A stretch of DNA of 64,000 bases, from positions 124,001-188,000 of the forward strand of contig CANLXN010000001.1 in assembly GCA_947495135.1 (NCBI GenBank). The letters run 5' to 3'. This DNA comes from an uncultured Flavobacteriaceae bacterium (GTDB lineage: Bacteria; Bacteroidota; Bacteroidia; Flavobacteriales; Flavobacteriaceae). The translations under genes and the position numbers were made by a program. Below, in pieces: positions 17,118-56,186 of this stretch (position 1 is its first letter; the number at the start of each line of letters is the position of its first letter). Under the pieces are notes generated by a model that was not told where the DNA came from, ran no database searches, and saw only the letters and a program-made list of their open reading frames with translations.

Positions 17118-18485
17118 TTGGCTCAGAAACCATCCATACCAAAAGGAACACGCGATTTCTCACCAGCAGAGGTGGTAAAGCGTAACTATATTATGAACAC
17201 CATTAGAGGTTCGTTTACCTCTTATGGTTTTCAACCCATAGAAACACCTAGCTTCGAAAACAGCGATACCTTGATGGGAAAGTATGGGGAAGAAGGGGAC
17301 AGGCTGATCTTTAAGATTTTGAATAGTGGAGATTTTTTAAAGAAAGTAGACGATCAGCTTTTAAGTGAGAAGGATAGTGGAAAAATGACTCCCAAAATCT
17401 CAGAAAAAGCACTTCGCTACGATCTAACAGTACCTTTTGCACGCTATGTTGTACAACACCAAAACGAAATTACCTTTCCTTTTAAGCGGTATCAAATGCA
17501 ACCAGTTTGGAGAGCAGATCGACCGCAGAAAGGACGTTTTAGAGAATTTTACCAGTGTGATGCAGATGTAGTTGGAAGTAAATCGTTGTGGCAAGAAGTA
17601 GAATTAGTACAATTGTACGATGCTGTTTTTTCTCAGCTGAAATTGGACGGGGTGACCATTAAGATGAACAACCGAAAAATCCTTAGCGGTATAGCTGAAG
17701 TGATAGGCGAAGAAGACAAACTAATCGATTTCACCGTAGCACTCGACAAATTGGATAAAATAGGCGAGGAGGGTGTAAAAACCGAAATGCGCTCCAAAGG
17801 AATTAGCAATACAGCCATTGAAAAAGTGCAGCCACTATTTTCAGCCAGCGGAAGTGCTGCAGAAAAATTAGGAATGTTGAAAGAGCTCCTCTCTGGTTCG
17901 GAAACAGGAATGAAGGGAATTGAAGAGCTGGAATTTATAGTAAAGAATATTTCAGAATTGAAATTGAAAACAGCGCAATTAGAAATAGATGTGACGCTTG
18001 CACGCGGACTTAATTACTACACTGGAGCTATTTTCGAAGTTGGTGCTCCTGAAGGCGTTAGCATGGGAAGTATTGGCGGTGGTGGTCGTTACGACGATCT
18101 TACGGGAATCTTCGGACTAAAAGACGTAAGTGGCGTAGGAATTTCTTTTGGCCTTGATAGAATTTATTTGGTACTGGAAGAATTGGGTCTATTTCCTGAA
18201 ACCGTTTCAGCAAACACCAAAGTTCTGTTTATCAACTTTGGAGAGAAAGAAGCGCTTTACGCTATGAAAGCGATTAGCAAACTCAGAGAACATGGGGTTG
18301 CCGCAGAATTGTATCCAGATGCCGCCAAGATGAAAAAACAGATGGGGTATGCAGATAAACGCGCCATTCCCTTTGCCGTGCTAGCGGGAGATAAAGAAAT
18401 GGAAGCGGAAACTTTTACGCTTAAAAACATGGTGAACGGTGAGCAGAACTCAGTTAGTTTTGACGAAATGCTAAAAAGCCTTTAG
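17118..18485 (+). CDS. hisS: histidyl-tRNA synthetase (TTG start)
   Basis: [57 protein letters not shown]. Confidence 0.95.
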
Positions 18486-39268: not shown

Positions 39269-39739
39269 TTAGTTATTTATTAGATCAATCTTTTCATTCA
39301 CCTTATCCATGAAGCTGTGTAAATATTCAGGTACATTTTCTTTACCTTGATCTATTCTCCAACTTTGTACAATTCCGCTTTTCGAATACTGAATAAAGAG
39401 TCCGCCTCCATCTGCGCAGTCTGGACAGCCAAAGACGTCCATATCTTCTAAAAGAAGGTCATTTGGGAAAAAGGTGATCAAGTCTGCCACTTGTTGAAAA
39501 ATGGCATTGTCTAATTCGGTAAAATCTAAATTTTGGCCAGCATAATTGTCGTTGGTATCCTCAAAAAGTTGGGTGTCGGTCAGTTTAAACGTTTCCACAC
39601 ATTCTTCTCCTTCGCATTCACCATAAAAATGGCCAAAAATTAAAAAATCCTGTTCATTCAATGTAATATCACCATCATCATCGTTAGAGCAGGAGGTGGC
39701 AATTACGGCTAACATTAATATTAAAACTACTTTTTTCAT
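39269..39739 (-). CDS. hypothetical lipoprotein
   Basis: AVIATSCSNDDDGD lipobox. Confidence 0.7.
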   Translation of the reverse strand: MKKVVLILMLAVIATSCSNDDDGDITLNEQDFLIFGHFYGECEGEECVETFKLTDTQLFEDTNDNYAGQNLDFTELDNAIFQQVADLITFFPNDLLLEDMDVFGCPDCADGGGLFIQYSKSGIVQSWRIDQGKENVPEYLHSFMDKVNEKIDLINN

Positions 39740-39847
39740 AATTCGTTCTTTTATGCTGTAGATGTTGAATTTACAAAATGTTGCGTCTATTTGTTGACAA
39801 AAAGCAAGTTGAACTAAGAGTGCTTTGCTATTTATTAAAGATAGAAA

Positions 39848-40348
39848 TTAATTGGGAGAAGGGGTTTGGTTTGGTGGTGCTACATTAATGGTTTTAGCCC
39901 TAATTAATAAAACAATTCCGAAAACAGGATATTTTAAAAGTTTAAATGCCGCTTTTATTGCATACAGAAGGTATTCATCGGTTCCAAAGCGAAGGTATTC
40001 TATATAAGATTCTTGATATTCGGTGAGTATATAAACCGACTTGATTAATTCGATTAAAGATTGGACAATTAGAAGCCCCGCAAAGATGAGCATGGAAGCT
40101 ATAAATAATCTCCGAATATTCAGCGTTTCTTTATTTTCAATATATTTTAATACCCAAAATAGTAGCACAAGAAAAGCTGTAAATGAAAGCACTACAGGTA
40201 ACCAAAAAGAGAGGTGAGAAACGACTCCGTTAATGATAAATATATTTTCTGATATCGCTGCGAGTACATCAGAAAACGTAATAATGGACAAACAGGTAAA
40301 TGCACCTAATCCAAGTTGATTAAAAATAGTAGCGTTGTTGGTTTTCAA
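39848..40348 (-). CDS. DUF2975-like membrane protein
   Basis: Four TM segments, 166 aa. Confidence 0.6.
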   Translation of the reverse strand: MKTNNATIFNQLGLGAFTCLSIITFSDVLAAISENIFIINGVVSHLSFWLPVVLSFTAFLVLLFWVLKYIENKETLNIRRLFIASMLIFAGLLIVQSLIELIKSVYILTEYQESYIEYLRFGTDEYLLYAIKAAFKLLKYPVFGIVLLIRAKTINVAPPNQTPSPN

Positions 40349-40455
40349 TGATTTTTATTTGGAATGAATTACTAAATTACTAAGTATGACGACCACAAAT
40401 ACGCCAAATAAAATAGCTCAATTAATAGTTTGAACCACAAATATAGCGAATCAAA

Positions 40456-40497
40456 AAACTACTATGCTAGTGCCGCAGCAGTTGCATAGTAGTTCTA
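40456..40497 (-). terminator. rho-independent terminator for 40527..40988
   Basis: actactatgc...gcatagtagt with U-tract on minus strand. Confidence 0.6.
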
Positions 40498-40526
40498 TGA
40501 TTATTGTATGGTAATTCTTCTACCGC

Positions 40527-40988
40527 TTAGTCGCAGTCGTTGTACCAGTTATTTCCCCAGGTTCCGGCTGCGGTTCCCATCGAGGTTCCGAAAATAGTTG
40601 TTACCTCTCCGGTGCAGGTGTCCAGAAGATAGAGACCAGCTGGAAGCCCCGGTGAGGATTCCAGAACAATCCATCCAATTATTTTTCCTTGAGGAGGCAA
40701 CGGTTCGCCCACAGGATCGACAACAGATAGTGCTTGTTTGTGGATATCTACCTGCAAAGTAAACTCTGCTGGATCCAAATCGATGATCCCCAACTCATCA
40801 ATTTGATCTCTTAATAACTGACTTTCAAGGTACTCTATGCCCCATTCATTTCTTTGGGTAGCGTTGTCTGGATTGTCATCGCTTGATCTTGCCGTTGTTG
40901 ACGCTACAGATTCCACAGATGTTGTTTCGCGTTCGCAAGAAGTAAACACTAAACTTGCGACCAATAATAATACTAAATAGTTTTTCAT
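40527..40988 (-). CDS. hypothetical lipoprotein
   Basis: SLVFTSCERE lipobox. Confidence 0.65.
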   Translation of the reverse strand: MKNYLVLLLVASLVFTSCERETTSVESVASTTARSSDDNPDNATQRNEWGIEYLESQLLRDQIDELGIIDLDPAEFTLQVDIHKQALSVVDPVGEPLPPQGKIIGWIVLESSPGLPAGLYLLDTCTGEVTTIFGTSMGTAAGTWGNNWYNDCD

Positions 40989-41283
40989 AATTAAATTTTA
41001 ATGATTAATAATGAAGCAAAATTAGCTCTGGAGTTAGTGCAAGAAAACGATGGATGCAGGATCGGGTATTGTGAATGGATAAAGGGTAAAAGCAAGGAGA
41101 TTTATGGTGGGGGATGTGAAACGTGGAAATTGGAACAGGAAGAGCAACCGAGAGAAGTTGTGACTACAGTGAAGTGTTTTTCTTGTTTTTCGGTTGAGAA
41201 GGAATTAGCTAAATAGTAATTACTCAATTTTAAGAATCGCTGTAGTCGTTAATTATATAGTCAGTTATGCGAAACTTTATTTC

Positions 41284-41694
41284 TCACATGCTGCTTTCAA
41301 TATATTTATAGTCTTCGCTCAAAAATTTGTCTAATAAGATATGAGCATCTTTTATAGAAAACCATTTATCTGTTAAATGAAATTTTAGTTTTTCACCTAA
41401 AAGTCCGAAGAGCATTTTTCGCATTACTTTCCTTTTATACCAAAGATAAAATTCGAAGTTCTCAGGATTTTCTCCCCCCGCTGAAAAAGTTAAGCTAAAA
41501 TTATTCTTTTGGTTTATAAATTCTAGTGAAGGGCTATAAAACGTCTCTTCTTTAGGGAGGGCCTTTAATCGTTTTAGATTTTCTTTCCACGGATAATTTA
41601 AAACCATTTCTTTTACCTGAGATGCTGATAATAGATCTTCAGGGTATTCTATATTCGGCTGGTCAATATGGCAAATAGTGTGTTTATAGAGCAT
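41284..41694 (-). CDS. hypothetical protein
   Basis: 136 aa ORF only. Confidence 0.5.
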   Translation of the reverse strand: MLYKHTICHIDQPNIEYPEDLLSASQVKEMVLNYPWKENLKRLKALPKEETFYSPSLEFINQKNNFSLTFSAGGENPENFEFYLWYKRKVMRKMLFGLLGEKLKFHLTDKWFSIKDAHILLDKFLSEDYKYIESSM

Positions 41695-41859
41695 AGATAT
41701 ATTTATAGATGGAGAAGTTACAACTAGCGGTTAAATATAACCGTCGTTAACCGGTATACTTTAATTATCTGGTTTAGCATAGACTTTATTAATTCTAAGC
41801 GAATTTAAATATCGTGGTATCTGCCGTAATTGTGGTTTACAAAGTTGATTACAATTTTA

Positions 41860-42066
41860 TTAACTATTTATCATACTAATTATGTGCATTAAAAGTGCAG
41901 CCCAGAAGAAACTTTGGTATCCTTTTATAATTGTTCCCTCATTTTTTGACAACCATTTATTTCTACTATTCATTTTAACTATCAATTTTATAAGATTCGC
42001 AATAGCATATTTATTCCATAAATAAATAACTGCTCCGTAAATCACTGTAGACAATACCTTTTTCAA
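41860..42066 (-). CDS. small membrane protein
   Basis: 68 aa with two hydrophobic segments. Confidence 0.4.
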   Translation of the reverse strand: MKKVLSTVIYGAVIYLWNKYAIANLIKLIVKMNSRNKWLSKNEGTIIKGYQSFFWAALLMHIISMINS

Positions 42067-42156
42067 AAGGGGTCATTTTTCATTTTTTACAGCGGTCCTA
42101 TTTACTTTTAGTCGCATGTTTCAACAACTAATTTAGGAAATAGAAACCGAATGGAA

Positions 42157-42174
42157 TCCCGATAGCTATTGGGA
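42157..42174. repeat. TCCCGATAGCTATTGGGA palindrome
   Basis: Near-perfect palindrome, second copy at 44178. Confidence 0.7.
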
Positions 42175-42384
42175 CACGAAGATTTTTGTAAGTATTTGAT
42201 TACTAGCAATTAATTATACGTTGTTGTAGCCAGTTTATTTATCCTTTTTCTTTAGTTGCAAAGCTTTGTCCTTGTATATGGCTTTATTTTACTTCTAAAA
42301 GAGTACACATCTTATAAAAAGTGCTATTAGTTGTAACCTTTTTGTTATTTGATGCTTCTAACAAGTAATTAGAGATTAATAAAA

Positions 42385-43251
42385 ATGAAAAAAAGAACAA
42401 TTTATACTATCCTGATGGCGAGTATAGCATCATTAATATCGGCATTTGCAACATTCATTATTCTAGATACGTCGGAAACGCCATCAACGTACGACACGTA
42501 TGAAATAGAATCAATAGTACTTCAAGAAACTAGAGAATTAATTGTAAAAAAACCTAGAAATTATACAAAGGATAAGCAATATGCTGTAGTGTATGTCCTT
42601 GGCGGTAATTCTCTAACTTATACTGTTGCAAATGACACTGATTTGCTTTCTCGTGTTGGCAATATTCCTGAGGTAATAGTTGTTGGAATACCAAGTATTG
42701 ATCAAAAAACAAGGCAGCGAGATTTAACACCACCTTTCTTAAAGCAAGATTTAGACGAAACCAACTCTCCACTAGGTAAAGGAGATAACTTTCTAAAGTA
42801 TATTGAAAATGAAGTTATACCATTGATTGATAAGAACTATAAAACAATTAACAATAGAGCAATTGTAGGTCATTCTCGCGAAGGTTTATTAGTATTTTAT
42901 TCGCTTATAGCAACACCTAATCTTTTTGACACTAGAATTGCACTGAGCCCTGCTCTTTGGAGAGAAGACAATGCTTTTGTAAAACGATTTGATGATTACC
43001 TAACGGGGAATCCAAAAATAAAATCTAATATATTTATGAGTATGGGAGGAAATGAAGTTGATAAAATGAAAAATGCATTTGATTTAACAACAGATGTATT
43101 AACAAAAAAGGCTCCTTCAAACCTAATTTGGAAGTCATTCTATATGCCTAATGCAACACACCAAACTAATCATTATTTAACGGCTTGTATAGGTGTTAAT
43201 TATTTTTTAAACAAAAAAGAGATGCAATCAAATTTTAATATAAATGATTAA
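42385..43251 (+). CDS. esterase-like alpha/beta hydrolase
   Basis: AVVYVLGGNSLTYTVANDTDLLSRVGNIPEVIVVGIPSID...RAIVGHSREGLLVFYSLIATPNLFD. Confidence 0.75.
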   Translation: MKKRTIYTILMASIASLISAFATFIILDTSETPSTYDTYEIESIVLQETRELIVKKPRNYTKDKQYAVVYVLGGNSLTYTVANDTDLLSRVGNIPEVIVVGIPSIDQKTRQRDLTPPFLKQDLDETNSPLGKGDNFLKYIENEVIPLIDKNYKTINNRAIVGHSREGLLVFYSLIATPNLFDTRIALSPALWREDNAFVKRFDDYLTGNPKIKSNIFMSMGGNEVDKMKNAFDLTTDVLTKKAPSNLIWKSFYMPNATHQTNHYLTACIGVNYFLNKKEMQSNFNIND

Positions 43252-43386
43252 TTTAATTGAAGTTAATTTGTCCCATTCCTCTTTTGGTAATTAGTCTCAG
43301 TCTTTTTTTTGACTTCTTAAAGATTATTGAACGAAGGAGGGTCTAATACTTTAATTTATTCATTGGTCTTATCCATTTCTTAAATT

Positions 43387-43525
43387 GGCTACAACGTTTC
43401 GGCTATGCTTTCGTTGCGGAATCGTCCGCGAGGACTATTCCGAGAAAACCTAGCCTTCATTGCAAGATAAGAATTCCCGTTTAGGAAATTCCGCCGCAAT
43501 GAATTAAGGCCATTGTTAGCTGCTG
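43387..43525. repeat. cassette-boundary palindromic repeat A
   Basis: ggctacaacg...cattgttagctgctg; contains hairpin gaattcccgtttaggaaattc. Confidence 0.6.
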
Positions 43526-43529
43526 TTTT

Positions 43530-43901
43530 TTATGGTTTTTCGTATTCAATTATTGATGATATTCTTTCTGGTATTTTTTCAGGTGCTCTTAATTCCATTT
43601 CACCGTCTTGAGTAATAAGTGGCTTTTCAAAGTCAATAAAGTGAAAGAAAAAAGCAAGTCTTGTGAAGTCTGAAGTATCCTTAGGTGAGTCCAACCAATC
43701 CCCCGTAACTTCTGTCCCTTCCTCATTTAAAAATTTCTCATCCCAAGGTGTTTGCCAATCTATTCGATCAATTCCATCTTCGACTTGAGTGAATTGCCCG
43801 ATATCAACTTGCTCGTGATTCAGTTTAATTCCCAATTCAATAAGGTGAACATTCTGCTGTCCGCTTACTTCATAAATTCCGATTAATTCTATTTTTTTCA
43901 C
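43530..43901 (-). CDS. hypothetical protein (cassette gene)
   Basis: 123 aa; stop lies about 10 nt from repeat A. Confidence 0.6.
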   Translation of the reverse strand: MKKIELIGIYEVSGQQNVHLIELGIKLNHEQVDIGQFTQVEDGIDRIDWQTPWDEKFLNEEGTEVTGDWLDSPKDTSDFTRLAFFFHFIDFEKPLITQDGEMELRAPEKIPERISSIIEYEKP

Positions 43902-43915
43902 AGTATCAAATGTTT

Positions 43916-44046
43916 GCTAACGGTTTTGTGTAAGCGTCAGTAACGGGAAAGTGCGCGAGTACTTTCCGCTGACGCACCTAATTTATCAAAACGAGTTGAA
44001 TTTCCGATTAGGAAATTCAGCCGTTATTGCGCTTACACGTCTTAAG
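43916..44046. repeat. cassette-boundary palindromic repeat B
   Basis: gctaacggttttGTGTAAGCGtcagTAACGG...CCGTTAttgCGCTTACACgtcttaag; hairpin gaatttccgattaggaaattc. Confidence 0.7.
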
Positions 44047-44177
44047 TTTGATTCTCTATAAATTTAGATATAAACTAGAAAGAATAAAGGAGAGAATTAA
44101 GGTTAATATATGCGGTGAAGCTTAAGACTTCGACAACATTGATAATCCTCTCTCTTTTACTACTTAAATCACGTTCA

Positions 44178-44195
44178 TCCCGATAGCTATCGGGA
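44178..44195. repeat. TCCCGATAGCTATCGGGA palindrome
   Basis: Perfect 18-bp palindrome. Confidence 0.75.
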
Positions 44196-44334
44196 CTGTG
44201 AGACTTTGGATCTCGTTTTCGAGTTTTTGTGATGCCAGTAGCTAGTTCTTGCATAAATTATTTTGTATGATTAAATATAAAGAAACTTATGGAGTTGACA
44301 TTAGCAAAGAAGTCTTTGATGTACGTTCATTTTT

Positions 44335-44583
44335 TCAATCAGACATATCAATATCTTTTGGAAAATTTCTCCAGTTACGGAAATCAATTTCGGAACATTT
44401 GTCAGATTCTAATTTGCTAGAATTTTTTGCATTCCAAGCAGTGTTAATATGATGATACAAATGGGTCATATCGACAATATAATCTCCAAACTCATATTCA
44501 GAACCCGATTCTAATTCTTTGATAGTATTAGTGAGTTGATTAAGGCCTTCCTTTAAATTATATAAGATGTATTCTTTATTCAT
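44335..44583 (-). CDS. hypothetical protein (cassette gene)
   Basis: 82 aa ORF. Confidence 0.5.
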   Translation of the reverse strand: MNKEYILYNLKEGLNQLTNTIKELESGSEYEFGDYIVDMTHLYHHINTAWNAKNSSKLESDKCSEIDFRNWRNFPKDIDMSD

Positions 44584-44633
44584 CTTTTTTGTGGTTTTCT
44601 AATGAAGTAAACACATTGTTGTGCGCTTGTTTT

Positions 44634-45047
44634 TTATTTTTCTACAATTAATTCAATTTGCTCGCAATTCAGTCGAAACATTTTTCCGTTTTCAAAAAGA
44701 TATATTATATCATCATTTTCATTTGGTTTATTATGTTCCATAAATCCGTCATTTATTTCACGCATTGATTTAGGGAAAAATGAAATTCCGCTCAATGTAT
44801 TTTCATCTTCAGGGAATTCAGAATTGTCTCCATTCGTTGAATTTTTAAACATTACGTTTTTATGCAAAAAAGTCAGTTTTTCAAATTCGTTTTCGTGAAC
44901 CCAGTCTCCAGTGGACTTTATAAATTCAATTCGGACATTATTGTCAAATTCCGATATTGCTTTGAATTCAAAATTATTATGCAAATCAATATGAATTCCA
45001 TTTAATTGAACCGCATAATTTTCTTCAATTTCAAAGTTTGTTTTCAT
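44634..45047 (-). CDS. hypothetical protein (cassette gene); start at internal Met because the ORF extension is repeat-encoded
   Basis: MKTNFEIEENYAVQLNGIHIDLHNN... Confidence 0.6.
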   Translation of the reverse strand: MKTNFEIEENYAVQLNGIHIDLHNNFEFKAISEFDNNVRIEFIKSTGDWVHENEFEKLTFLHKNVMFKNSTNGDNSEFPEDENTLSGISFFPKSMREINDGFMEHNKPNENDDIIYLFENGKMFRLNCEQIELIVEK

Positions 45048-45061
45048 ACTTTTCCGCAAAT

Positions 45062-45256
45062 GACGTACAATGTTGTAGCTATGGTTAGGACGGTGAAGAA
45101 ATTCAGCGAATTTCAAGCTAGCACAAATAAAAGCTTTGAGCTGTTTTTTAGTTTGTTAGTATAAAAATAGGGAAAAAGCTTTTGCGATAATACTAATCAG
45201 CCAACATTTCGACTAGCAACCGCTCCCGTATTAATTATTGCCACTGTTAGCTATAG
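45062..45256. repeat. cassette-boundary palindromic region E
   Basis: gtacaatgttgtagctatgg...ccactgttagctatag; the end overlaps the stop codon of 45247..45807. Confidence 0.5.
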
Positions 45257-45807
45257 TCTTTTATTTGTTCAGTAATTAATTCAGCAAATTCTTTAACGTC
45301 GTCATTTTGGTTTTGAGTATATTTTTCAAAAATTCCCTTGTCATTAACTATTTTAATTGTCATTTTGGAAAGCAACTCTTGGTACTTTATATCATCAGTT
45401 TTATGGTTTGAACAAGAAGCAAATCCGAATATAATATCTAATAATTCAATTTTTAGCTTCTCGTTACATTCTATTAAGCGGTTTCTTATTATTTCATAAG
45501 CAGGTAATGATGCGGAAGAAATGTATGCGTGTTGATGACATAAAGAACACCATAATTGATGTGCAGCTTTTAAAGCTATTTTTGCGTCCTCACAATAAAT
45601 ATTTTTTAAATAGGTCGGAATAGTTTTCTCTGCGTTTCCATATGCAGTTTCAAAATTCCCCCAATCAATATCATCTATCTGCTTTAAAATCTGTTCGTCA
45701 ATCTTTTCTCCACAAACGTTTGGTTCAAGAATTTCAGGTTTTATTTCCTCTTGATTTCTATCTTCAGTTTTTTTATTATTTCTATTGAATATTTTGAAAA
45801 TAGACAT
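45247..45807 (-). CDS. hypothetical protein (cassette gene)
   Basis: 186 aa; stop TAA lies within repeat end GCTAACAG. Confidence 0.65.
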   Translation of the reverse strand: MSIFKIFNRNNKKTEDRNQEEIKPEILEPNVCGEKIDEQILKQIDDIDWGNFETAYGNAEKTIPTYLKNIYCEDAKIALKAAHQLWCSLCHQHAYISSASLPAYEIIRNRLIECNEKLKIELLDIIFGFASCSNHKTDDIKYQELLSKMTIKIVNDKGIFEKYTQNQNDDVKEFAELITEQIKDYS

Positions 45808-45972: not shown

Positions 45973-48591
45973 TTATCTTCGTCTTCTGATTGTTTTAATG
46001 TAATCCTCTAATACAGTCAAATCAGCCAGAAATTCAGCAGAGTCTGGCATTTCCTCTATTAATGTTCCTGCTGTATCGTGTCCTGTAAAATAGGTAGAAC
46101 ACTTGCTCATATTTGCGTCAACAAGATTATAATCATCATCAGTTAAATCTACAATCTTAGATAAACGTTGAGTTTGTATTGCTCTACCAAATCTTTGAAT
46201 TGCTCCGTTGAGAAATACTTCTTCAACAAAACGCTCCCAGGTTTCTCTGAGTTTGCCATACATCAATTTTGCCCTTTCTTTATAAACTTCTTCGGTTTCT
46301 GTTCTTTCGATTTTCTCTAATTTTTGATATGCATTTTTCAACAAGCCAATTCTTTTCCCTACAGGTAAAGCATCCCAAGGTGGATTGCTTGCAATTAGTC
46401 CTGTTTCTTTTTTCTTTCTTGTCAGGCTCTTTATATCTAAATCACAATTTAAACTTTTAGAATGTTCTTGAATCATTAGTAGAAAAGTGATATCGTGCGT
46501 AAATACGATAACCTGTCGCTCTAAAGCTTCTTCTGCAATTCTTTTCGATATTTTATTTCTCCATTTATGGTCAAGGGATGAAACTGGGTCATCAAAAATT
46601 ATAGCACTTTTATGCTCTGAAATGGATAATTCAGATAAGAATGTTGCTAAGGAAATACACCTATGTTCTCCTTCGCTTAAAACGTCTTTTAGTGCAATTC
46701 CATTTGCGTTCTGTTCATCAAGTCTTAAGTAGTGATATTGTTTCCCTCTTTGTCCTTTTGTTTCGGTTTCTATCTTGATGTTTTTAAATCCTAGTTTGGC
46801 AAGTTCCGTTTTGAAATTCTGTTTAAGGTTTTGACTTATGTAATTTGTTGCTAAATCATTACTAAGAGTAGTAATGGTTCGAGTATTACATTTACTAATG
46901 CACTGATTTAGCAGTTTTATCTTTTTTTGTCGATAAATTTCACGAGCTAACTTGGGTTTATATTCAAAAATCTTTTTTTCGCCCTTTAATTGATTTAGTT
47001 CCTTGTTTAGCGGTTTTAAATCTTCTTCAATTGATTGGACTGCTAACTTCTCATTTGCTTCTTTTAAGTCTTTAATGAGATTCTGAATTTGAGTTTTAGG
47101 TGTATTCTCAATTTCAATTGAATTAATAGATTCAACAGATTTTTTAAAATTAAACAGCCCAACTAAATAGTCCTTCTGTTTAGAAAGTGACTCTAAATAT
47201 GCTGATTGATTTTTCGAGTATTCATCAATCAGTTCATCTAACTCAATTGTTGTAGGCTTTTGTTCTTCAAAAGAAAAATCCTGACTATTTAAATTTTCAT
47301 ATTCTAAATCAAATTTATCAGAAGCTTCATCAAAAGATTTTTGAATATCATTTTTCACAAATTCCTCGAAAGCAGTAAATCTGCTTTTTGCATCTTCCCC
47401 TAAATCTTGAAAACAAAGAGGGCAATTACTCTCTCCATTTACTTTTGGAAAATCTTCTGTCTCGGTACTTTCGTTATAGAACTTTCGAGCACTTTCCCAA
47501 AGTAATTTCCAAGAACTATTACCAACGCCCTCAATTGGTAATTCTGAGAATGCCTTTTCAGAAGATTCTTTAAGTGCTTTACTTGTTGTTGCAAGATTAT
47601 TTAATACTTGTTTTAAGTCCTCTAATTTTGCTCCTGTCAAGTTATTTTCTAGTGTTTGAAATTTGTTTTGCAAAACCTCAAATCGCTTTATCTTATCGAT
47701 GTTTTCTTTTAAGATTTTCTTAGGGTCGGTTGCTTTTAATTTATCTATTTGTTTGGTTAGCTCTTCAATTCTAGAATTTTTGGTTTCATTCCAAATTGCT
47801 TCTGCTCTTAATTCGTTAAGTGTAGTTTCCGAATTTAAATTGTTGAGAAATGTTTTAGCAGTCGAACAATCTGAAACTTCTAAAAGAGTATGGTCAAATT
47901 TCTCTAATGCAGGGTCTGAAAATTCCGCATTTAGTTCATTGTCAACTTTTTTTATACAGACTGCTAATTTTTCTACAATAGATAGCCCTTGAGGAATAAA
48001 GGCTATTTCATCTTCCCCTTCAATGTAATGATTGGCACTAAACGTGTCGAAAACATCAACACTTTTTAAAACAGAGTCATTTACTACTTCATTTATAAGA
48101 TTTACTGTGTTGAAATTTATTCCATCAATTGTATATTCAATATCCGCTTTTTTATCATTTCCAAAACAAGTTGGGTCATATAGATTGTCATTTATTTTCG
48201 GCTTACTTCCTCTAGTATTACAAGCGTGTTTTAAAATGCTAACATAGCTTGATTTTCCTGAACCATTATCTCCATAGACAAGCGTAAGTCCGTTTGAGGC
48301 AAATTCTAATTCACTGGCTTGTGAGAGTGCGTTTATGTTGTTTACATTGGAAATTTTAGAGAGTATTATGTCATCACTATTTGTTGCATTGTTTGCGAAG
48401 TCTCTTAAATCATCAAAGTCCACTTCATCAAAATCAAAGTCTGATAATCCATAATCTACTTTACAGATTTCCTTTAGTTCCGAAATATCATTATCAGTTA
48501 GTTCGTTATTTCTGATTAAACGGTCAATGGCAATTTGCCAAAAAACAGGCTTGTTTTCTACCCAATCAATTATATCATTTAGTATTGGCAT
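45973..48591 (-). CDS. SMC/RloC-like AAA_13 ATPase with CPxC zinc-hook-like motif
   Basis: Walker A YGDNGSGKSSY, CPLCFQDL in coiled coil, signature LSEGEHRCISLATFLSEL, Walker B AIIFDDPVSSLD, VIVFTHDI. Confidence 0.85.
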   Translation of the reverse strand: MPILNDIIDWVENKPVFWQIAIDRLIRNNELTDNDISELKEICKVDYGLSDFDFDEVDFDDLRDFANNATNSDDIILSKISNVNNINALSQASELEFASNGLTLVYGDNGSGKSSYVSILKHACNTRGSKPKINDNLYDPTCFGNDKKADIEYTIDGINFNTVNLINEVVNDSVLKSVDVFDTFSANHYIEGEDEIAFIPQGLSIVEKLAVCIKKVDNELNAEFSDPALEKFDHTLLEVSDCSTAKTFLNNLNSETTLNELRAEAIWNETKNSRIEELTKQIDKLKATDPKKILKENIDKIKRFEVLQNKFQTLENNLTGAKLEDLKQVLNNLATTSKALKESSEKAFSELPIEGVGNSSWKLLWESARKFYNESTETEDFPKVNGESNCPLCFQDLGEDAKSRFTAFEEFVKNDIQKSFDEASDKFDLEYENLNSQDFSFEEQKPTTIELDELIDEYSKNQSAYLESLSKQKDYLVGLFNFKKSVESINSIEIENTPKTQIQNLIKDLKEANEKLAVQSIEEDLKPLNKELNQLKGEKKIFEYKPKLAREIYRQKKIKLLNQCISKCNTRTITTLSNDLATNYISQNLKQNFKTELAKLGFKNIKIETETKGQRGKQYHYLRLDEQNANGIALKDVLSEGEHRCISLATFLSELSISEHKSAIIFDDPVSSLDHKWRNKISKRIAEEALERQVIVFTHDITFLLMIQEHSKSLNCDLDIKSLTRKKKETGLIASNPPWDALPVGKRIGLLKNAYQKLEKIERTETEEVYKERAKLMYGKLRETWERFVEEVFLNGAIQRFGRAIQTQRLSKIVDLTDDDYNLVDANMSKCSTYFTGHDTAGTLIEEMPDSAEFLADLTVLEDYIKTIRRRR

Positions 48592-48623
48592 TATTTGTAT
48601 TTATTGGGTTGGTTTTTAATAAA

Positions 48624-48759
48624 GCATAACGTTCTCGTGTATGAGTAGTAGCGGATTTCTACTCACAAACCTTTCGGTTTTTCACTAACCCTTTTTTTAT
48701 GTTTTTACTTTCATTTTATCACTTAAACCGCTATTACTTATATACATTGTTCTCAGCTG
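48624..48759. repeat. cassette-boundary palindromic repeat G
   Basis: gcataacgttctcGTGTATGAGTAGTAGCGG...CCGCTATTACTTATATACattgttctcagc. Confidence 0.75.
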
Positions 48760-50324
48760 GCATTTTTTTCAGCTTTTGTCATACTATAATAAGCTAACTC
48801 CAATGCTAATGCTCTTTTATTATGTGGAATTGAACCAGTTCTATATGAAACTTGTAACAGCTCTTTCATTAATCCAATTTGAAACTCCCAAAGAGTAAAA
48901 TCATCACCATAAATTCCTTCTGCATTTTTGATTAACCAATTTATCGAATCAATTATTCTATCATTCTTTGAATCATAATCTATTTGTTCTAGATCAACAA
49001 TCTTTTGACCTATTGAGAAGTAATAATCAAAAGAGTTTAGATCAAAAAACTCTTTTGTGTATCCATTTTCCTTATCAAACCCAATTCCATTGATGTATAA
49101 ATCAATGATCAGACGGCATACGTCAAAGCACCAGTATCCATAACCTAACCCACCTGTATCTATAAGGATTGGTGTCTCATCATCTTCAACCAAAATATTT
49201 TTTGAGTGTAAATCAAGGTGATTTAATGTTACAGCACCTTTCTTTAAAAGATCTTTAGAGTTTAGTTTTCCAAACTTCTCGTTAATAATTAGGTTTTCTA
49301 CTTGATTGACATCAAAACTCTTGAGCATTGATTTTAATTCCTTGCTGACTTCTCTTATCGTCAAAAACTTTCCAGTTTTGAATTTTTCGAATATCGTTGT
49401 CCACATTTTAGACTCTATTCGTTGAGTTTCATAATGTTTTGTCATTCCACTAATATGAAAAAAGGAATTGAGAACTTTCTCTATGTTTGTATTACCATTC
49501 TCATTAATTATAAAATCAAACAATGTCTTAGAATTTGGCACCAATTTTATTACTATTGCTAAGGTGTTTTTATTAGGTGTATAAAACTTCTTACGCACTA
49601 TCCCATTAAATAACTTTGTTGGGAATAATTCATACAGAGATTCTGCTTTCTCAAATTCACTTTCTAGTAGTTGAACTTCATTCGATATTTTTAAAACATA
49701 GCTTGTATTTTCAACTGTAAATTTGAATAGTATAGCACCACTGAAACCTGATTTTAGTTTAGATAATATAATTTGTTTGTCTAGAGGTAAATTGAAATGT
49801 TGTTTAACCTGAAATAATATCTGGTTGATTTTATCTCTTCCAAAAAACCTTAATTGCTGATTAAATTCACTCACATATCCTGATGTCACTTCAAATTGAT
49901 CAGGTAGGCTTTCTTTTATTACCTTTTCTATTTCTCTTTTTATACGACTGGTATCAGCATCTTCAGATTTCTTGATAAATGGGATAGTGGAATACTTTTC
50001 TTCATAGAGATTTAGATCTATATCACTTCCCTCATCCCTTTTTGCAGTGGTATAGACAATTATTGGAAAATCAATTTGATGGTTTTTAAAACTTTCTAAA
50101 ATATCAAATCCCACTAATTTTCCACTGTTTGTTTCATCTAGTAAATCAAGAATTAATAAGTCGAAATCTCTTACAAAATCGTAAATGTCGTCAAGTATTA
50201 TTTTATAATCAATTTCTGAATATTCTACATATCCATATTTGGTATTTAAATCGTTATGAACTCCTTTAAGTCTTGAAACGATAATATTATTATCATCCCA
50301 GTGTGCTATTTTGAATTTATTCAT
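48753..50324 (-). CDS. receiver domain + APH/protein-kinase-like domain fusion
   Basis: Receiver: HWDDNN, LLILDLLDE, IIVYTTAK, PFIKKS. Kinase: YVLKIS, NHLDLHSKNILVED, ILIDTGGLGYG. Confidence 0.8.
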   Translation of the reverse strand: MNKFKIAHWDDNNIIVSRLKGVHNDLNTKYGYVEYSEIDYKIILDDIYDFVRDFDLLILDLLDETNSGKLVGFDILESFKNHQIDFPIIVYTTAKRDEGSDIDLNLYEEKYSTIPFIKKSEDADTSRIKREIEKVIKESLPDQFEVTSGYVSEFNQQLRFFGRDKINQILFQVKQHFNLPLDKQIILSKLKSGFSGAILFKFTVENTSYVLKISNEVQLLESEFEKAESLYELFPTKLFNGIVRKKFYTPNKNTLAIVIKLVPNSKTLFDFIINENGNTNIEKVLNSFFHISGMTKHYETQRIESKMWTTIFEKFKTGKFLTIREVSKELKSMLKSFDVNQVENLIINEKFGKLNSKDLLKKGAVTLNHLDLHSKNILVEDDETPILIDTGGLGYGYWCFDVCRLIIDLYINGIGFDKENGYTKEFFDLNSFDYYFSIGQKIVDLEQIDYDSKNDRIIDSINWLIKNAEGIYGDDFTLWEFQIGLMKELLQVSYRTGSIPHNKRALALELAYYSMTKAEKNAS

Positions 50325-53300
50325 ATTTCATAAGTTTATAAGTTATATTAAAGAAGCCATTTTCATCATTTTTAGGTGAAAAAATAATATCTCCTCCATA
50401 CTTTCTTACTTCTTGTTTTATAGAACTAAGCCCACCGATTTCATTGTTTGGATGATCGTGTGGGTCACTGTTAGTATTGTCGTAAGAAATCCTGAAATAT
50501 TTATATTTATTATCTCCCGGAATGGAATAATCTAGGCGACAAATAATATTTTCGAATTTACCGTACTCATTAAAATGGTCTATTTCCTTATTAGTTGTTC
50601 TACTTCTTATACTAGCAAGTATTGTATTTAAATCAGATTTAAATCTATTCCGCGGATAAAACACCAATCCGTGATCAATACCTTCTTCTTCGAATTTTTC
50701 AAATCTATTCTTGAATAGACTGTTTTCAACGGACTCTGAAATGTTTAAAGGAAATTGATTTATAAATACATTAAATTCAGAATCTTTTTTTATAAGGGAA
50801 TCATAAAACAGCTTGTGTAATTTGTCATATTCAGGCTTAACTTGTAAATAAGTTATAGGTTCCGAGTTGAGTTGTGCAGCAAAGCCACTAAACCTTGCTA
50901 TTGGATTATCAGTACTATTAGAGCAGATTTTTTCTAAAATATTAAAAAGAACAAAGTCATTTCTGAATGACCTAGAATTTTTAATATTTTCAGAGAGCTG
51001 TTTATAATAAGTAATTATATTTTTATATATATGATTTTTTACCTTAGACCAATGTTGATTAATATCTAACAAGGGCAACCAAAGCGATTGATAATACAAA
51101 GATTCGTCAATTTTAATAGATATATCAGTTAATCCTTGCTTACTTAAATGTAAAAGACTCCTGTCACCAAGAGCTTTCTCTAAATCAGGATGACTGTATG
51201 GCTTATATTCGTTGTCATATATTAATTTTAATTGTTTAATGATTTCGATGTCATCTAAACTCTCAATATCAATCTCAGTAAGCTTAGACGTAATAATGTT
51301 ATGTAGTCTGTCAATAGCATTTCTTGGCCCATAACTTCCATCATCGTTAATGTCTGGAATTTCCGCTATTTCATTAATTGAGGAATATGATTGTTTTAGT
51401 TTTGCAAAGTATTTGTTGCTTTTGTTATACTTGTTTTTCAATATGGAAAACGTGTGATAAAAACTATTCTGCATTAAATTATTGCTGTAACCATTTTGAA
51501 AACTTGACGATTTTACGATTTCATAAATTTTCTCGCAGAATTCAAGTTTATTGGAAGATCGCAAAAGCGAAATTGCAGCATACTTGTATCTTGTTGCACT
51601 GTCTAAAGCACTGACATTATTATTTATTTTGCCTTTAAATAGTTCAATTAGTTTTTGTCTATCGATTGTGGATAGAGAAGAAGACATTTTTGATAACATT
51701 ATTCTAAAATCTCGGAAAACAAGAGGTTCTTTTTGTAACCAATGAACTTCGTTAGAAAGATAATACACTGTGGCATACAGATCTGAATCGGGTTCTGAAA
51801 TTTGCTTCTCACAATTTGAATAAATATTATATAAATACTCAAATAGAGAAATTCTAGAATTAGTATTTATCAAAGCATCTTCAAGAAGCAATTTTAAATT
51901 AAACATCTTTTTTATCACCGTAGAAGATAATTCCTGATTTTTTTTATCAGGATATTCATAGTAGAAGTCAAATGGATAACTCTCTCTGGATATAGCTAGT
52001 TTCTTTCTTATTTGTAATCGTCTCTGTCTGTCCTCAGAGAAATTAAACATATAATCTTTTTTGTCATCACTCATTTTGTAATATTCGAGTGCATCTATAT
52101 GATTACAAATCGGGCAGTTTTCTCTATCATAATATTTTAGTGGTAGTTTAAAAAGAAATTCAATGTTTAAATTCGTTGGTTTAGATTTTATTTGTGGCAG
52201 ATTTTTTAACTTATTTAATCGCTTGTAATGCTCGAATTTATCAGTGTATGATTGGTCAAATAGAATACAAATGAATAAGTTTTCTAGTCCTTCAAAATCA
52301 TTCAGCATTTGGTTTACTGTTTGGCCACTAATAAGACCGAAATCTATTATGAATACATTAAGTAGATTTTTATCAACCAAGTCTCCTAAGCTTTCAGAGT
52401 AAGATATGGTTGGTAGTTCATCATATGTTAAACAATTTGGATACTTGTCAGAAAAATATTGTTTTAAATATCCATTATCCTTAAAAAATAAGTCATTTTT
52501 AAGGTAAATGGTAAAGTGTTCAATTGAATTTGATTCAATCCAATTTTCAATTCTAGATTCTATAGTTTTACTAATAATGCTTTCTGAGTTGAGTAGTTTA
52601 GGTTTGTCAATATAGAAAGTAAAATGGCGATCATTTTTTATACCAATATGATTATAATTGAGTGATTTTGATTTTTCAAAATGGTTTAAAATATCCGCGT
52701 CAATTAGCTCTTTTGATTCTTTTTCTAAAATTTTAAAATCAGGATTTACTACCTTACCATTAAATTTTTGAAGTCTTTTTAACTTTCTTTCAAAATAAGT
52801 GTTGTCTCTAATTACTTTTGGTTCATTCTTATTATCTGGTTTATAAACACTCTCTATACTTGTTTTACTTCCCCACGTTTCTAATTCATTTATATTATAT
52901 TTTCGAAAATTACACAGGCTCAGAACTATAAGAGGAACTGCATTGTCTCTTTTCACATATTTCACTAATCGTCTAACCGTTTCAGAACTTGAAACAATCG
53001 ATGTTAAAATAATAACATTAGATTTTTCGGGAATTAACTTAAATCGTTTAAGAGAATTGACTTGAATTTCATTTTCAATATTTATTAGGTGTTTGTCTTT
53101 TAAGTTTAGTAGATTTAACAAAGAATAAGCTAGATCTATATGTTGCTTATGATCAATTAATACAAACAATTTATTTGTACTTTGTTCACTTATATACTTT
53201 AAAGATTTCAGATAAAGAACTAATGCAAAGCCAAGCTCGTTGTCTCTAATTAAATCTTGAACTTTTAACCAATAATCAGAAATATAAACTTTAGGGGTGC

Positions 53301-55125
53301 AGAATTGTGTAGTTGATTTTTCTTTGGTGTCATTTATTTTGTTCTTCAGGATATTACTGAATAGCGATTCGATGTCATAAAATATTAGCTCAATTTTCCC
53401 ATCTCGATCAACGTGAACTAAACGATTGTCATTTTCTAACCCTTGACGTATCTTAATTTTTTCAGGATATGATAAACTTTGAAAAGAACTGAGTTTATCA
53501 ATTGTTATGTCAAAGTTATTTTCATAAACTTCATTAAGTAAATTGACAACAATTTGATTGCCACCATACCAATATGTGCTGTTTCCGTATAAAACAATAA
53601 CAGGGTCGTATATCACCTCGTTGTCTTTATCTTCAGATAATTCTAAGTGTGTTTTCGACTTAATATACTCGTTAATAGAATCAATTACTAGGTCAATTGA
53701 AGATTTGTCAAGAGTAGAATTTACGTAAACGACAACTCCACTAGGATGAGAATGGTAACTGATTTCTAAAAGAAGAAATTTCAATAAAGACAGCTTATCT
53801 TCATCATTCAAATCTTTGTCTTTATCTAAATCAATAACGCACAAAATTTTCTTTTCAGTTTTTAATTCTTGTTCAATTCTCTTTTCTAACTCATCTTTAG
53901 TAAAATCAGATCTAAGAGAAAAGGTTTTCCATACTTGACTTTGATTATTGTTTATTAAGCGAAGTTTGAATTTCTTAACTACAGAGTATGGACAAAGCTT
54001 AATTTGAATGAAAGATCCATTGAATGGTGTATTTACTTTTCGATTCTCCCATCTAGGCTCTCTCAGTCCACCCTTCCTAAAGCCACCATTTTGATTATTC
54101 GTTATTATATGAAAGATACCATTGTAGTTATTCACTATTCGGTTTATTCTATACAACCCTTTAGTTCCTCTTCTTTCCTCTCCAAATTTTTTAGATGTCC
54201 ATTTGTTGAATGACCATCTCAGTTGTTCTGCCTCACTTATAATATTATCTCTTTTGCAGGCATCTTTAAAACTCGAAGTATAAAAGCCTCCACCTGAATC
54301 GCCAAAATAAATTTCAATCAGAGACGGTACTTTTTCCTTTAAGCTCCATTCTATAAATTCTTTTTCAAAATTCCCATCAAGATTGATTTTATTGAATGAG
54401 CTAGTTGATATTAGCCCAATTGATAGTAAAAACTTTTTTTTTCGAAATTTAAGGCTGGTATGTTCTTTTACGTTTTTACTTAGCTCCGAAAAGATTACAT
54501 TTTTTATGGCTTGAACATCAAAAGATTCGAGTCCTCTTGTGGGATTTTCAAGTATTTGCTTAAACTTTTTCTCAATATTCTTATAATTATTAATTGTTTC
54601 ATCTACTGAAATCCATTCAAGTGGATATAAATATTGATATCCTGATTGTTTGATGACCTCTGGACTGTTAACTTCTTCAAAAGCCAATTCAAAATTTTCT
54701 ATATTAAACTCTGATTCAAAATCAAAATTCTCTGTAAAATAAATTTGAACATTATGCTCTTGTGCAGATTCTTTTAGAACCGAGGCCAGTTGAATGTTCT
54801 TAAGAAAGCCATTGACTTTTATTCGATTCTTTAACAAATTAGCTCTTAATTCGGAAGTGAAATTTTTATCCTTGCTACTTTCTTCTCTAGTAGAATAATT
54901 CTTTAAGGGATAAGAGACAAATAGATTCTCTATTAAATCCCTTCCAAATAGTTCATCAACTCTTAAAACCAAATAATTTAACGCTGATAACTGTGCGAAG
55001 GTCACTTGAGATAAGTCTACGAATAATTCTTCTTTTTCGAATAAGGCACTTTTTTTAATCTTCAGAAACTCACTTTCTATAGATTCGTTTGTTACGTGTT
55101 TTATTCCTTTAAATAAATGATTCAA
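50317..55125 (-). CDS. 1602-aa multidomain protein: STAS-like N-terminus, GHKL ATPase, two PRTase-like motifs
   Basis: N box FSELSKNVKEHT, G1 IYFGDSGGGF, G2 RRGTKGLYRINRIV; VIILTSIVSSSETVRRLVKYV and VFIIDFGLISGQT; 8-nt overlap with the next gene. Confidence 0.8.
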   Translation of the reverse strand: MNHLFKGIKHVTNESIESEFLKIKKSALFEKEELFVDLSQVTFAQLSALNYLVLRVDELFGRDLIENLFVSYPLKNYSTREESSKDKNFTSELRANLLKNRIKVNGFLKNIQLASVLKESAQEHNVQIYFTENFDFESEFNIENFELAFEEVNSPEVIKQSGYQYLYPLEWISVDETINNYKNIEKKFKQILENPTRGLESFDVQAIKNVIFSELSKNVKEHTSLKFRKKKFLLSIGLISTSSFNKINLDGNFEKEFIEWSLKEKVPSLIEIYFGDSGGGFYTSSFKDACKRDNIISEAEQLRWSFNKWTSKKFGEERRGTKGLYRINRIVNNYNGIFHIITNNQNGGFRKGGLREPRWENRKVNTPFNGSFIQIKLCPYSVVKKFKLRLINNNQSQVWKTFSLRSDFTKDELEKRIEQELKTEKKILCVIDLDKDKDLNDEDKLSLLKFLLLEISYHSHPSGVVVYVNSTLDKSSIDLVIDSINEYIKSKTHLELSEDKDNEVIYDPVIVLYGNSTYWYGGNQIVVNLLNEVYENNFDITIDKLSSFQSLSYPEKIKIRQGLENDNRLVHVDRDGKIELIFYDIESLFSNILKNKINDTKEKSTTQFCTPKVYISDYWLKVQDLIRDNELGFALVLYLKSLKYISEQSTNKLFVLIDHKQHIDLAYSLLNLLNLKDKHLINIENEIQVNSLKRFKLIPEKSNVIILTSIVSSSETVRRLVKYVKRDNAVPLIVLSLCNFRKYNINELETWGSKTSIESVYKPDNKNEPKVIRDNTYFERKLKRLQKFNGKVVNPDFKILEKESKELIDADILNHFEKSKSLNYNHIGIKNDRHFTFYIDKPKLLNSESIISKTIESRIENWIESNSIEHFTIYLKNDLFFKDNGYLKQYFSDKYPNCLTYDELPTISYSESLGDLVDKNLLNVFIIDFGLISGQTVNQMLNDFEGLENLFICILFDQSYTDKFEHYKRLNKLKNLPQIKSKPTNLNIEFLFKLPLKYYDRENCPICNHIDALEYYKMSDDKKDYMFNFSEDRQRRLQIRKKLAISRESYPFDFYYEYPDKKNQELSSTVIKKMFNLKLLLEDALINTNSRISLFEYLYNIYSNCEKQISEPDSDLYATVYYLSNEVHWLQKEPLVFRDFRIMLSKMSSSLSTIDRQKLIELFKGKINNNVSALDSATRYKYAAISLLRSSNKLEFCEKIYEIVKSSSFQNGYSNNLMQNSFYHTFSILKNKYNKSNKYFAKLKQSYSSINEIAEIPDINDDGSYGPRNAIDRLHNIITSKLTEIDIESLDDIEIIKQLKLIYDNEYKPYSHPDLEKALGDRSLLHLSKQGLTDISIKIDESLYYQSLWLPLLDINQHWSKVKNHIYKNIITYYKQLSENIKNSRSFRNDFVLFNILEKICSNSTDNPIARFSGFAAQLNSEPITYLQVKPEYDKLHKLFYDSLIKKDSEFNVFINQFPLNISESVENSLFKNRFEKFEEEGIDHGLVFYPRNRFKSDLNTILASIRSRTTNKEIDHFNEYGKFENIICRLDYSIPGDNKYKYFRISYDNTNSDPHDHPNNEIGGLSSIKQEVRKYGGDIIFSPKNDENGFFNITYKLMKYE

Positions 55126-55523: not shown

Positions 55524-55680
55524 AGTAACGAGAGGAGCCAGTGCGCCTAAGGCGTAGGGCACGATCCCCCGTCCGCCTCAGGCGGATATGAATCCGATCT
55601 CAATATATTTTGGAACAACAACTGTACGAATATATTTTCTTCCTTGACCGGACTTTAGTGCTTTCTCTCTGCCAACTGTA
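55524..55680 (-). pseudogene. copy 1 of tRNA-Met 3'-half plus GIY-YIG C-terminal fragment
   Basis: taacgagagg...gggcacgatcccccg...tatgaatccgatctc, then the REKALKSGQGRKYIRTVVVPKYIEIGFISA coding fragment. Confidence 0.75.
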
Positions 55681-55687
55681 TTCCACA

Positions 55688-55724
55688 AAAAAACTCCCCA
55701 ATTAGATGAACTGGGGAGTTTTTG
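55688..55724 (-). terminator. duplicated terminator hairpin (copy 1)
   Basis: aaactcccca-attagatgaac-tggggagttttt. Confidence 0.65.
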
Positions 55725-55730
55725 ATAATA

Positions 55731-55815
55731 AGTAGCGAGAGGAGCCAGTGCGCCTAAGGCGTAGGGCACGATCCCCCGTTCCCCTCAGGCGGATATGAAT
55801 CCGATCTCGATATAT
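55731..55815 (-). pseudogene. copy 2 of tRNA-Met 3'-half
   Basis: agtagcgagagg-agccagtgcgcctaaggcgta-gggcacgatcccccg...tatgaatccgatctc. Confidence 0.75.
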
Positions 55816-56066
55816 TTTGGAACAACCACTGTACGAATATATTTTCTTCCTTGACCAGACTTTAGTGCTTTCTCTCTGCGAATTGCCTTAGATTTATTTT
55901 TATAGAATTCGATTTCAAGAACCTTCCAAGGTCTATATCTTAAAGTATATCCTTTTTTGACTAATTGATTATGAGAATAAAACCTTTGAATAATACTTGA
56001 AGTGTAACCAATGTAAATAGCATTGTACTTTTCAGAATAAAGAATATAGACTACAAATTCTTCCAT
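55785..56066 (-). CDS. GIY-YIG nuclease (URI-like small family)
   Basis: MEEFVVYILYSEKYNAIYIGYTSSIIQRFYSHN. Confidence 0.85.
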   Translation of the reverse strand: MEEFVVYILYSEKYNAIYIGYTSSIIQRFYSHNQLVKKGYTLRYRPWKVLEIEFYKNKSKAIRREKALKSGQGRKYIRTVVVPKYIEIGFISA

Positions 56067-56067
56067 A

Positions 56068-56104
56068 AAAAAACTCCCCAATTAGATGAACTGGGGAGTT
56101 TTTG
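56068..56104 (-). terminator. terminator hairpin between tRNA-Met and GIY-YIG gene
   Basis: aaactcccca-attagatgaac-tggggagttttt. Confidence 0.65.
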
Positions 56105-56112
56105 ATAATAAG

Positions 56113-56186
56113 TAGCGAGAGGGGGGCACGATCCCCCGACCTCCGGGTTATGAATCCGACGCTCTAACCAACTGAGCTACCTCGCC
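56113..56186 (-). tRNA. tRNA-Met (CAT anticodon; could also be tRNA-Ile2)
   Basis: GGCGAGGTAGCTCAGTTGGTTAGAGCGTCGGATTCATAACCCGGAGGTCGGGGGATCGTGCCCCCCTCTCGCTA folds as a cloverleaf. Confidence 0.9.

Follow-up and report, generated by a model that had tools for sequence, protein, structure and literature searches.

A conserved two-gene unit of a giant GHKL/PRTase-like protein and a receiver-APH kinase fusion in three distant bacterial lineages

In a 64,000-nucleotide stretch of contig CANLXN010000001.1 from an uncultured Flavobacteriaceae bacterium (positions 124,001 to 188,000, referred to as the window herein), we find a gene for a giant protein followed directly by a gene for a receiver domain fused to an APH-type kinase. 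The order of the two genes and their overlap of 8 nucleotides (nt) are the same at all three loci where the giant is known. We tentatively propose, with a little less than even confidence, that the pair is a mobile system responding to stress or phage, in which the giant, as a sensor or ATPase, controls a kinase output gated by the receiver.

A gene pair joined by a conserved overlap

A preliminary description of the window had reported two overlapping minus-strand genes and quoted a set of motifs from their products. Both open reading frames (ORFs) are present with the reported coordinates, strands and lengths, and the pair measures 6.4 kb (Table 1). All of the quoted strings were also recovered, namely the GHKL N box, G1 and G2, two segments resembling a phosphoribosyl pyrophosphate (PRPP) loop, CPIC..H, HLDLHSKN and IDTGG. 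These motifs are not chance occurrences, since their core residues are invariant or nearly so in two homologous pairs at 29-40% identity. One pair is found in Chlorobium ferrooxidans DSM 13031 (G594; giant 40%, kinase protein 38% identity) and the other in a Bacteroidia genome, G764 (29% identity for each protein), which belongs to the same class as the window organism and is the only genome of its order in our sample. The homologous giants, of 1596 and 1663 residues, align over their full length.

In both Chlorobium and G764, the receiver-kinase gene lies directly downstream of the giant, in the same order as in the window. The overlap letters at the three loci are ATGAATAA, ATGAATAA and ATGAGTAA (consensus ATGARTAA), where the 8 nt in Chlorobium are counted from the start at MNKNF and not from the mechanical upstream TTG. 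Since all three known giants have the kinase gene adjoining them with an overlap of the same length, the co-occurrence anticipated in the preliminary description is borne out, and a conserved two-gene unit with translational coupling is well supported (n = 3).

The distribution of the pair is rare and patchy across three distant bacterial lineages. Only two further genomes, out of a sample of up to ~1,090 distinct ones from the phylum, yielded a full-length giant; the query was not identical across this sample. A collection-wide contig scan with two degenerate peptide patterns returned Chlorobium only, and thus does not show absence beyond Bacteroidota/Chlorobiota. No relatives of the pair were found in viral contigs, plasmids or phages, the pattern scan being otherwise the only search outside the phylum. 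Two further matches were rejected: a kinase match in G372 is UvrC, matched by chance, and a match in G863 has no coherent ORF. Our literature searches did not find a description of the gene pair.

Domains of the receiver-kinase and the giant

For the kinase protein, we searched the PDB with a three-sequence profile. The receiver matched the LuxO receiver (3cfy, E 3e-4), Spo0F and others, and the kinase domain matched spectinomycin phosphotransferase (3i0o, E 3.5e-5) and methylthioribose kinase. Pfam APH scored above its cut-off in both homologues and slightly below it in the window copy (22.2 against 23.2 bits). These profiles agree with the fusion of a receiver to an APH-type kinase that had been proposed earlier, when HLDLHSKN and IDTGG were pointed out. 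The features of an APH-type kinase are present (an N-lobe Lys, HxDxxxxN and a downstream Asp), and all three copies keep K212, H369/D371/N376 and D389, so that an active kinase is probable. The window receiver has the DD, D, T and K that the preliminary description had listed as canonical, and its D11 and D60 are invariant in the three copies.

Toward its N-terminus, the giant has the intact GHKL N box (E214/N218/H222), G1 (GDSGGGF; D276xGxG280) and G2 (R319GTKGLYRI) that had been noted before, with key residues invariant in all three copies. Pfam HATPase_c_5 matched this domain short of its cut-off (E 0.0026). The top PDB match of its AlphaFold model was the CckA CA domain (probability 0.97), and topoisomerase VI, CheA, Hsp90, GyrB and ParE followed, interspersed with unrelated structures (e.g., ribosomal chains) at similarly weak E-values. 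From the invariant motifs and the model, we consider a GHKL fold likely, albeit at low confidence.

For the AlphaFold model of residues 385-1250, most of the top PDB matches were phosphoribosyltransferases (PRTases). Foldseek returned UMP synthase, orotate PRTase, PurR, HPRT, APRT and PRPP synthetase at E-values down to 1.3e-4 and, for several of these, a probability of ~1, interspersed with dynein and Cdc48 at low probability; which of the two PRTase-like domains was matched is not readable from the output. PRTase-like domain 1 also matched NCBIfam PRK02277 (E 0.012), and domain 2 is based on its motif, strand order and PRPP-loop register. In profile alignments to PRTases of the same genome and to orotate PRTases, both loops fell in the PRPP-loop register, without reaching significance. 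Both loops had been described as lacking the usual acidic pair. Neither indeed has two acids, but loop 2 retains an invariant D928 (DFG/DWG), while loop 1 is without acids, and this holds in all three copies. B. subtilis PurR is a non-catalytic, ligand-binding PRTase, and the PurR among our fold matches is a structure solved with cPRPP and ppGpp. We regard PRTase-fold domains in the giant as likely at low confidence; they would probably bind a ligand, and ordinary PRTase activity is unlikely.

Two segments of the giant had been overlooked in the preliminary description. Residues ~15-135 have a possible STAS-like character; the segment has no Pfam match and the resemblance comes from manual inspection only, with DLSQ invariant in the three copies and a beta-beta-alpha-beta order in a low-confidence model. 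At the C-terminus, a whole-family giant profile (A3) matched the HATPase of a histidine kinase in G824 (E 5.9e-4), and the C-terminal segment aligned with 30 HATPases of its own genome better than 40 of 40 shuffles in hhalign. We assign a second HATPase-like domain here at low confidence. It appears degenerate because the G1 residues are not kept, and its role would probably be structural. Between these ends, CPxCxH is a possible metal site with only three ligands, and the helical segment at ~1070-1240, in which H1224 is invariant, is the most conserved unassigned part of the protein.

Table 1. Features of the gene pair and its downstream neighbor, with positions in the window
Feature	Positions	Strand	Remarks
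Gene 1, giant protein, 1602 residues	50317..55125	minus	TTG start; no internal stops
Gene 2, receiver-APH kinase fusion, 523 residues	48753..50324	minus	homologues adjoin the giant at both other loci
Gene overlap, 8 nt, ATGAATAA	50317..50324	minus	gene 2 start / gene 1 TAA stop
STAS-like alpha/beta segment, giant ~15-135 (FVDLSQVTFAQL)	54721..55083	minus	tentative
GHKL (HATPase) domain 1, giant ~184-380	53986..54576	minus	motifs and low-confidence model
PRTase-like domain 1, giant ~629-770; loop VIILTSIVSSSETVRR (704-719)	52816..53241	minus	both acids of the pair lost
PRTase-like domain 2, giant ~815-975; loop VFIIDFGLISGQT (924-936)	52201..52683	minus	one Asp kept
CPxCxH, giant 1004-1009	52099..52116	minus	invariant
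Helical segment, giant ~1070-1240 (WLQKEPLVFRDFR; AISLLRSSNK)	51406..51918	minus	strongly conserved; no assignment
Degenerate second HATPase-like domain, giant ~1470-1602	50320..50718	minus	profile match and hhalign
Receiver domain, residues 1-135	49920..50324	minus	phospho-Asp D60 invariant
APH-type kinase domain	48756..49862	minus	K212, H369xD371xxxxN376 and D389 invariant
AAA ATPase, 872 residues, PADLOC candidate PDC-S06	45973..48591	minus	1037 bits; 161 nt downstream of the pair

Proposed mechanism and comparison with known systems

In the reading that we tentatively favor, the intact GHKL domain of the giant would bind ATP, and the PRTase-fold domains, which have lost most catalytic acids, would sense a ligand, plausibly a nucleotide or a PRPP-like compound. 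The resulting change of state would pass to the translationally coupled receiver-kinase partner, whose receiver, on being phosphorylated at D60 or through contact, would release the active APH-type kinase. The kinase might then phosphorylate a protein or a small molecule, leading to cell arrest or protection. In this scheme we infer ligand sensing, the direction of signaling, the substrate, the trigger, the kinase as effector, and the role in defense or stress. That the pair is an anti-phage or anti-element system, in which the PRTase domains of a giant GHKL ATPase act as a nucleotide-state sensor and switch the receiver-gated APH-type kinase with no histidine phosphoacceptor domain, appears unlikely to us.

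Several observations weigh against the favored reading. The AlphaFold models of the giant are poor (mean pLDDT 51 for GHKL domain 1 and 52 for residues 385-1250). In hhalign, GHKL domain 1 against the HATPases of its own genome scored within the range of shuffles, as did the PRTase segments against own-genome and orotate PRTases, and PDB profile searches with GHKL domain 1, the PRTase segments and the C-terminus returned nothing relevant. The GHKL and PRTase folds named in the preliminary description are backed by the top matches of low-confidence models, and the GHKL fold also by its invariant motifs, but not by sequence profiles. Neither the window giant nor the homologous giants matched HisKA, HisKA_3 or Hpt at E<=1, in line with the earlier remark that no classical dimerization and histidine phosphotransfer (DHp) domain is evident; since this phosphoacceptor domain was not found, a classical phosphorelay is not demonstrated and a direct one is uncertain. 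The Chlorobium receiver, moreover, is without the conserved Thr/Ser and Lys. The full canonical set claimed for the receiver thus applies to the window copy and not to all copies, and switching by phosphorylation may not be general. Lastly, there are only three known copies and their neighbors differ.

The main rival to a direct phosphorelay is a conformational switch in which a GHL/SpoIIAB-like giant forms a complex with the receiver-kinase and keeps it inactive until a ligand frees it, with the receiver not phosphorylated. The unmatched HisKA and Hpt families and the receiver switch residues lost in Chlorobium speak for such a switch, as do the translational coupling, which suggests complex formation, and the combination of a STAS-like N-terminus, a GHKL domain and a degenerate second HATPase in the giant. 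However, the receivers of all three copies retain D60 and D11, suggesting that phosphorylation still matters, and we judge this alternative somewhat unlikely.

Among known systems, the defensive two-component system Detocs has an HATPase-type sensor, a receiver-effector fusion and nucleotide-related biology. The pair shares this logic of a sensor HATPase and a receiver fused to an effector. It differs in having two genes, an APH-type kinase as output and PRTase-like domains, and a separate relay gene, PNP and HisKA/DHp were not found. Detocs is outlined as an ATP-degrading system of three genes whose effector is a PNP (PMC11249213), and our pair is not a member of it. Effector modules with an APH kinase and a receiver occur in the vWA-MoxR-VMAP ternary conflict systems (PMC7159879), with TCAD9 named in PMC10910872. 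The pair has such modules, along with weak TCAD9 similarity, but no vWA, MoxR or VMAP was detected by Pfam and PADLOC among the adjoining genes searched at the three loci, where some neighboring ORFs were left unsearched. Type III retrons have PRTase effectors (PMC12548924) and likewise place a PRTase-fold protein within a conflict system, whereas no reverse transcriptase was seen in the ORFs around our pairs and the PRTase-like part lies inside a giant GHKL protein with the acidic pair lost. B. subtilis PurR and the orotate PRTases, although among the top fold matches of the giant, have a wholly different architecture, and their sequence similarity to it is not significant.

The preliminary description had presented the pair as a candidate new system. 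None of the libraries searched covers the pair: in PADLOC-DB 2.0.0 the two proteins and their homologues had no meaningful matches, and the giant matched no PADLOC model. The receivers of the two homologues weakly match PADLOC candidate PDC-M60 (PDC-M60B/C; E 0.027 and 0.0058), but the receiver alone matches while the giant does not. HATPase and REC domains are also named among unvalidated predicted defense systems in the legend to Fig. 6F of DefensePredictor (PMC13092281), a likeness that extends as far as that legend. If the favored reading is true, this two-gene architecture would join a small known group of conflict systems that make use of two-component modules, with a PRTase fold used as a sensor and not as an enzyme and an APH-type kinase as the output. 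Compact, self-contained in Chlorobium and with clear residues to mutate, the pair is directly testable.

Foreign composition and neighboring genes

The pair differs in composition from its surroundings at each locus, with a GC content of 0.29 against 0.38 in both flanks of the window, 0.28 against 0.48-0.52 in Chlorobium, and 0.32 against 0.37-0.38 in G764. GC is lowest at 49-55 kb. The pair sits at the tRNA end of a variable stretch between hisS (17118-18485) and tRNA-Met (56112-56186), which are spaced 37.6 kb apart in the window, compared to ~0.7 kb in the same-genus genome G1077 and ~2-4 kb in G1079 and G1084; ~37 kb (18485-56112) is thus missing at the same place in these relatives. The whole stretch need not have arrived jointly. 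Based on its foreign composition and the hisS/tRNA-Met insertion relative to members of the genus, the pair is a horizontally moved unit. In Chlorobium it forms an isolated AT-rich block, and since it stands alone there, the minimal unit appears to consist of these two genes.

Neighboring genes differ by locus. The PDC-S06 candidate downstream of the window pair has no counterpart beside the other two pairs and is treated here as a neighbor, not as a component of the unit. The G764 pair is followed downstream by genes for a hydrolase-like protein (476 residues), a caspase-like protein (354 residues; PADLOC caspase E 3e-18) and a protein of unknown kind (464 residues), which are possibly a separate conflict operon. 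The ORFs beyond these resemble, by eye, transposase, HTH-ImmA/IrrE, PIN and HipA, and an integrase and PDDEXK_3 lie upstream of the pair. The surroundings of the Chlorobium pair include Y1 transposase, Zeta-toxin and Fic family genes. Since no two loci share a partner, these neighbors speak for a conflict context but do not point to a third component. The preliminary description had called for a survey of co-occurrence and defense islands; the first is seen at every locus, while for the second PDC-S06 in the window is suggestive, together with the genes of caspase-like, HipA, Zeta and Fic type around the other copies. A defense role of the pair is suggested by its neighbors only.

The neighbors also bear on whether the pair is a signaling front end whose effectors are the adjacent genes, i.e., PDC-S06 in the window and the hydrolase-like and caspase-like proteins in G764. 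A same-strand gene only 161 nt downstream in the window and the position of the two genes directly downstream in G764 agree with this arrangement. We nevertheless find it very unlikely, given that the AT-rich block in Chlorobium has no such neighbor and that the neighbors are not common to the loci. A regulatory or metabolic system outside defense, concerned with nucleotide stress or small-molecule modification, would have the APH domain modify a metabolite and the islands serve only as transport routes. Members of the PRTase and APH families mostly act in metabolism, PADLOC models give no meaningful match, and the variation of neighbors from locus to locus fits as well; against these points stand rare, patchy copies on foreign AT-rich DNA with conflict-type neighbors, which make this alternative quite unlikely in our view.

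Elsewhere in the window, a run of small minus-strand ORFs (123-186 residues) at 39269-45807 is AT-rich and has no significant Pfam families. The intergenic region before PDC-S06 (48600-48720) contains short inverted repeats and, near 48624, a single attC-like GTTATGC; an origin as an integron cassette was rejected, as no cassette array was found. At the tRNA end (55524-56186), a partial duplication affects the 3′ portion of tRNA-Met and the stretch that follows it, in which part of a GIY-YIG-like ORF falls. This region has a 155-nt direct repeat at 95% identity, and CGGGGGATCGTGCCC is present in it three times.

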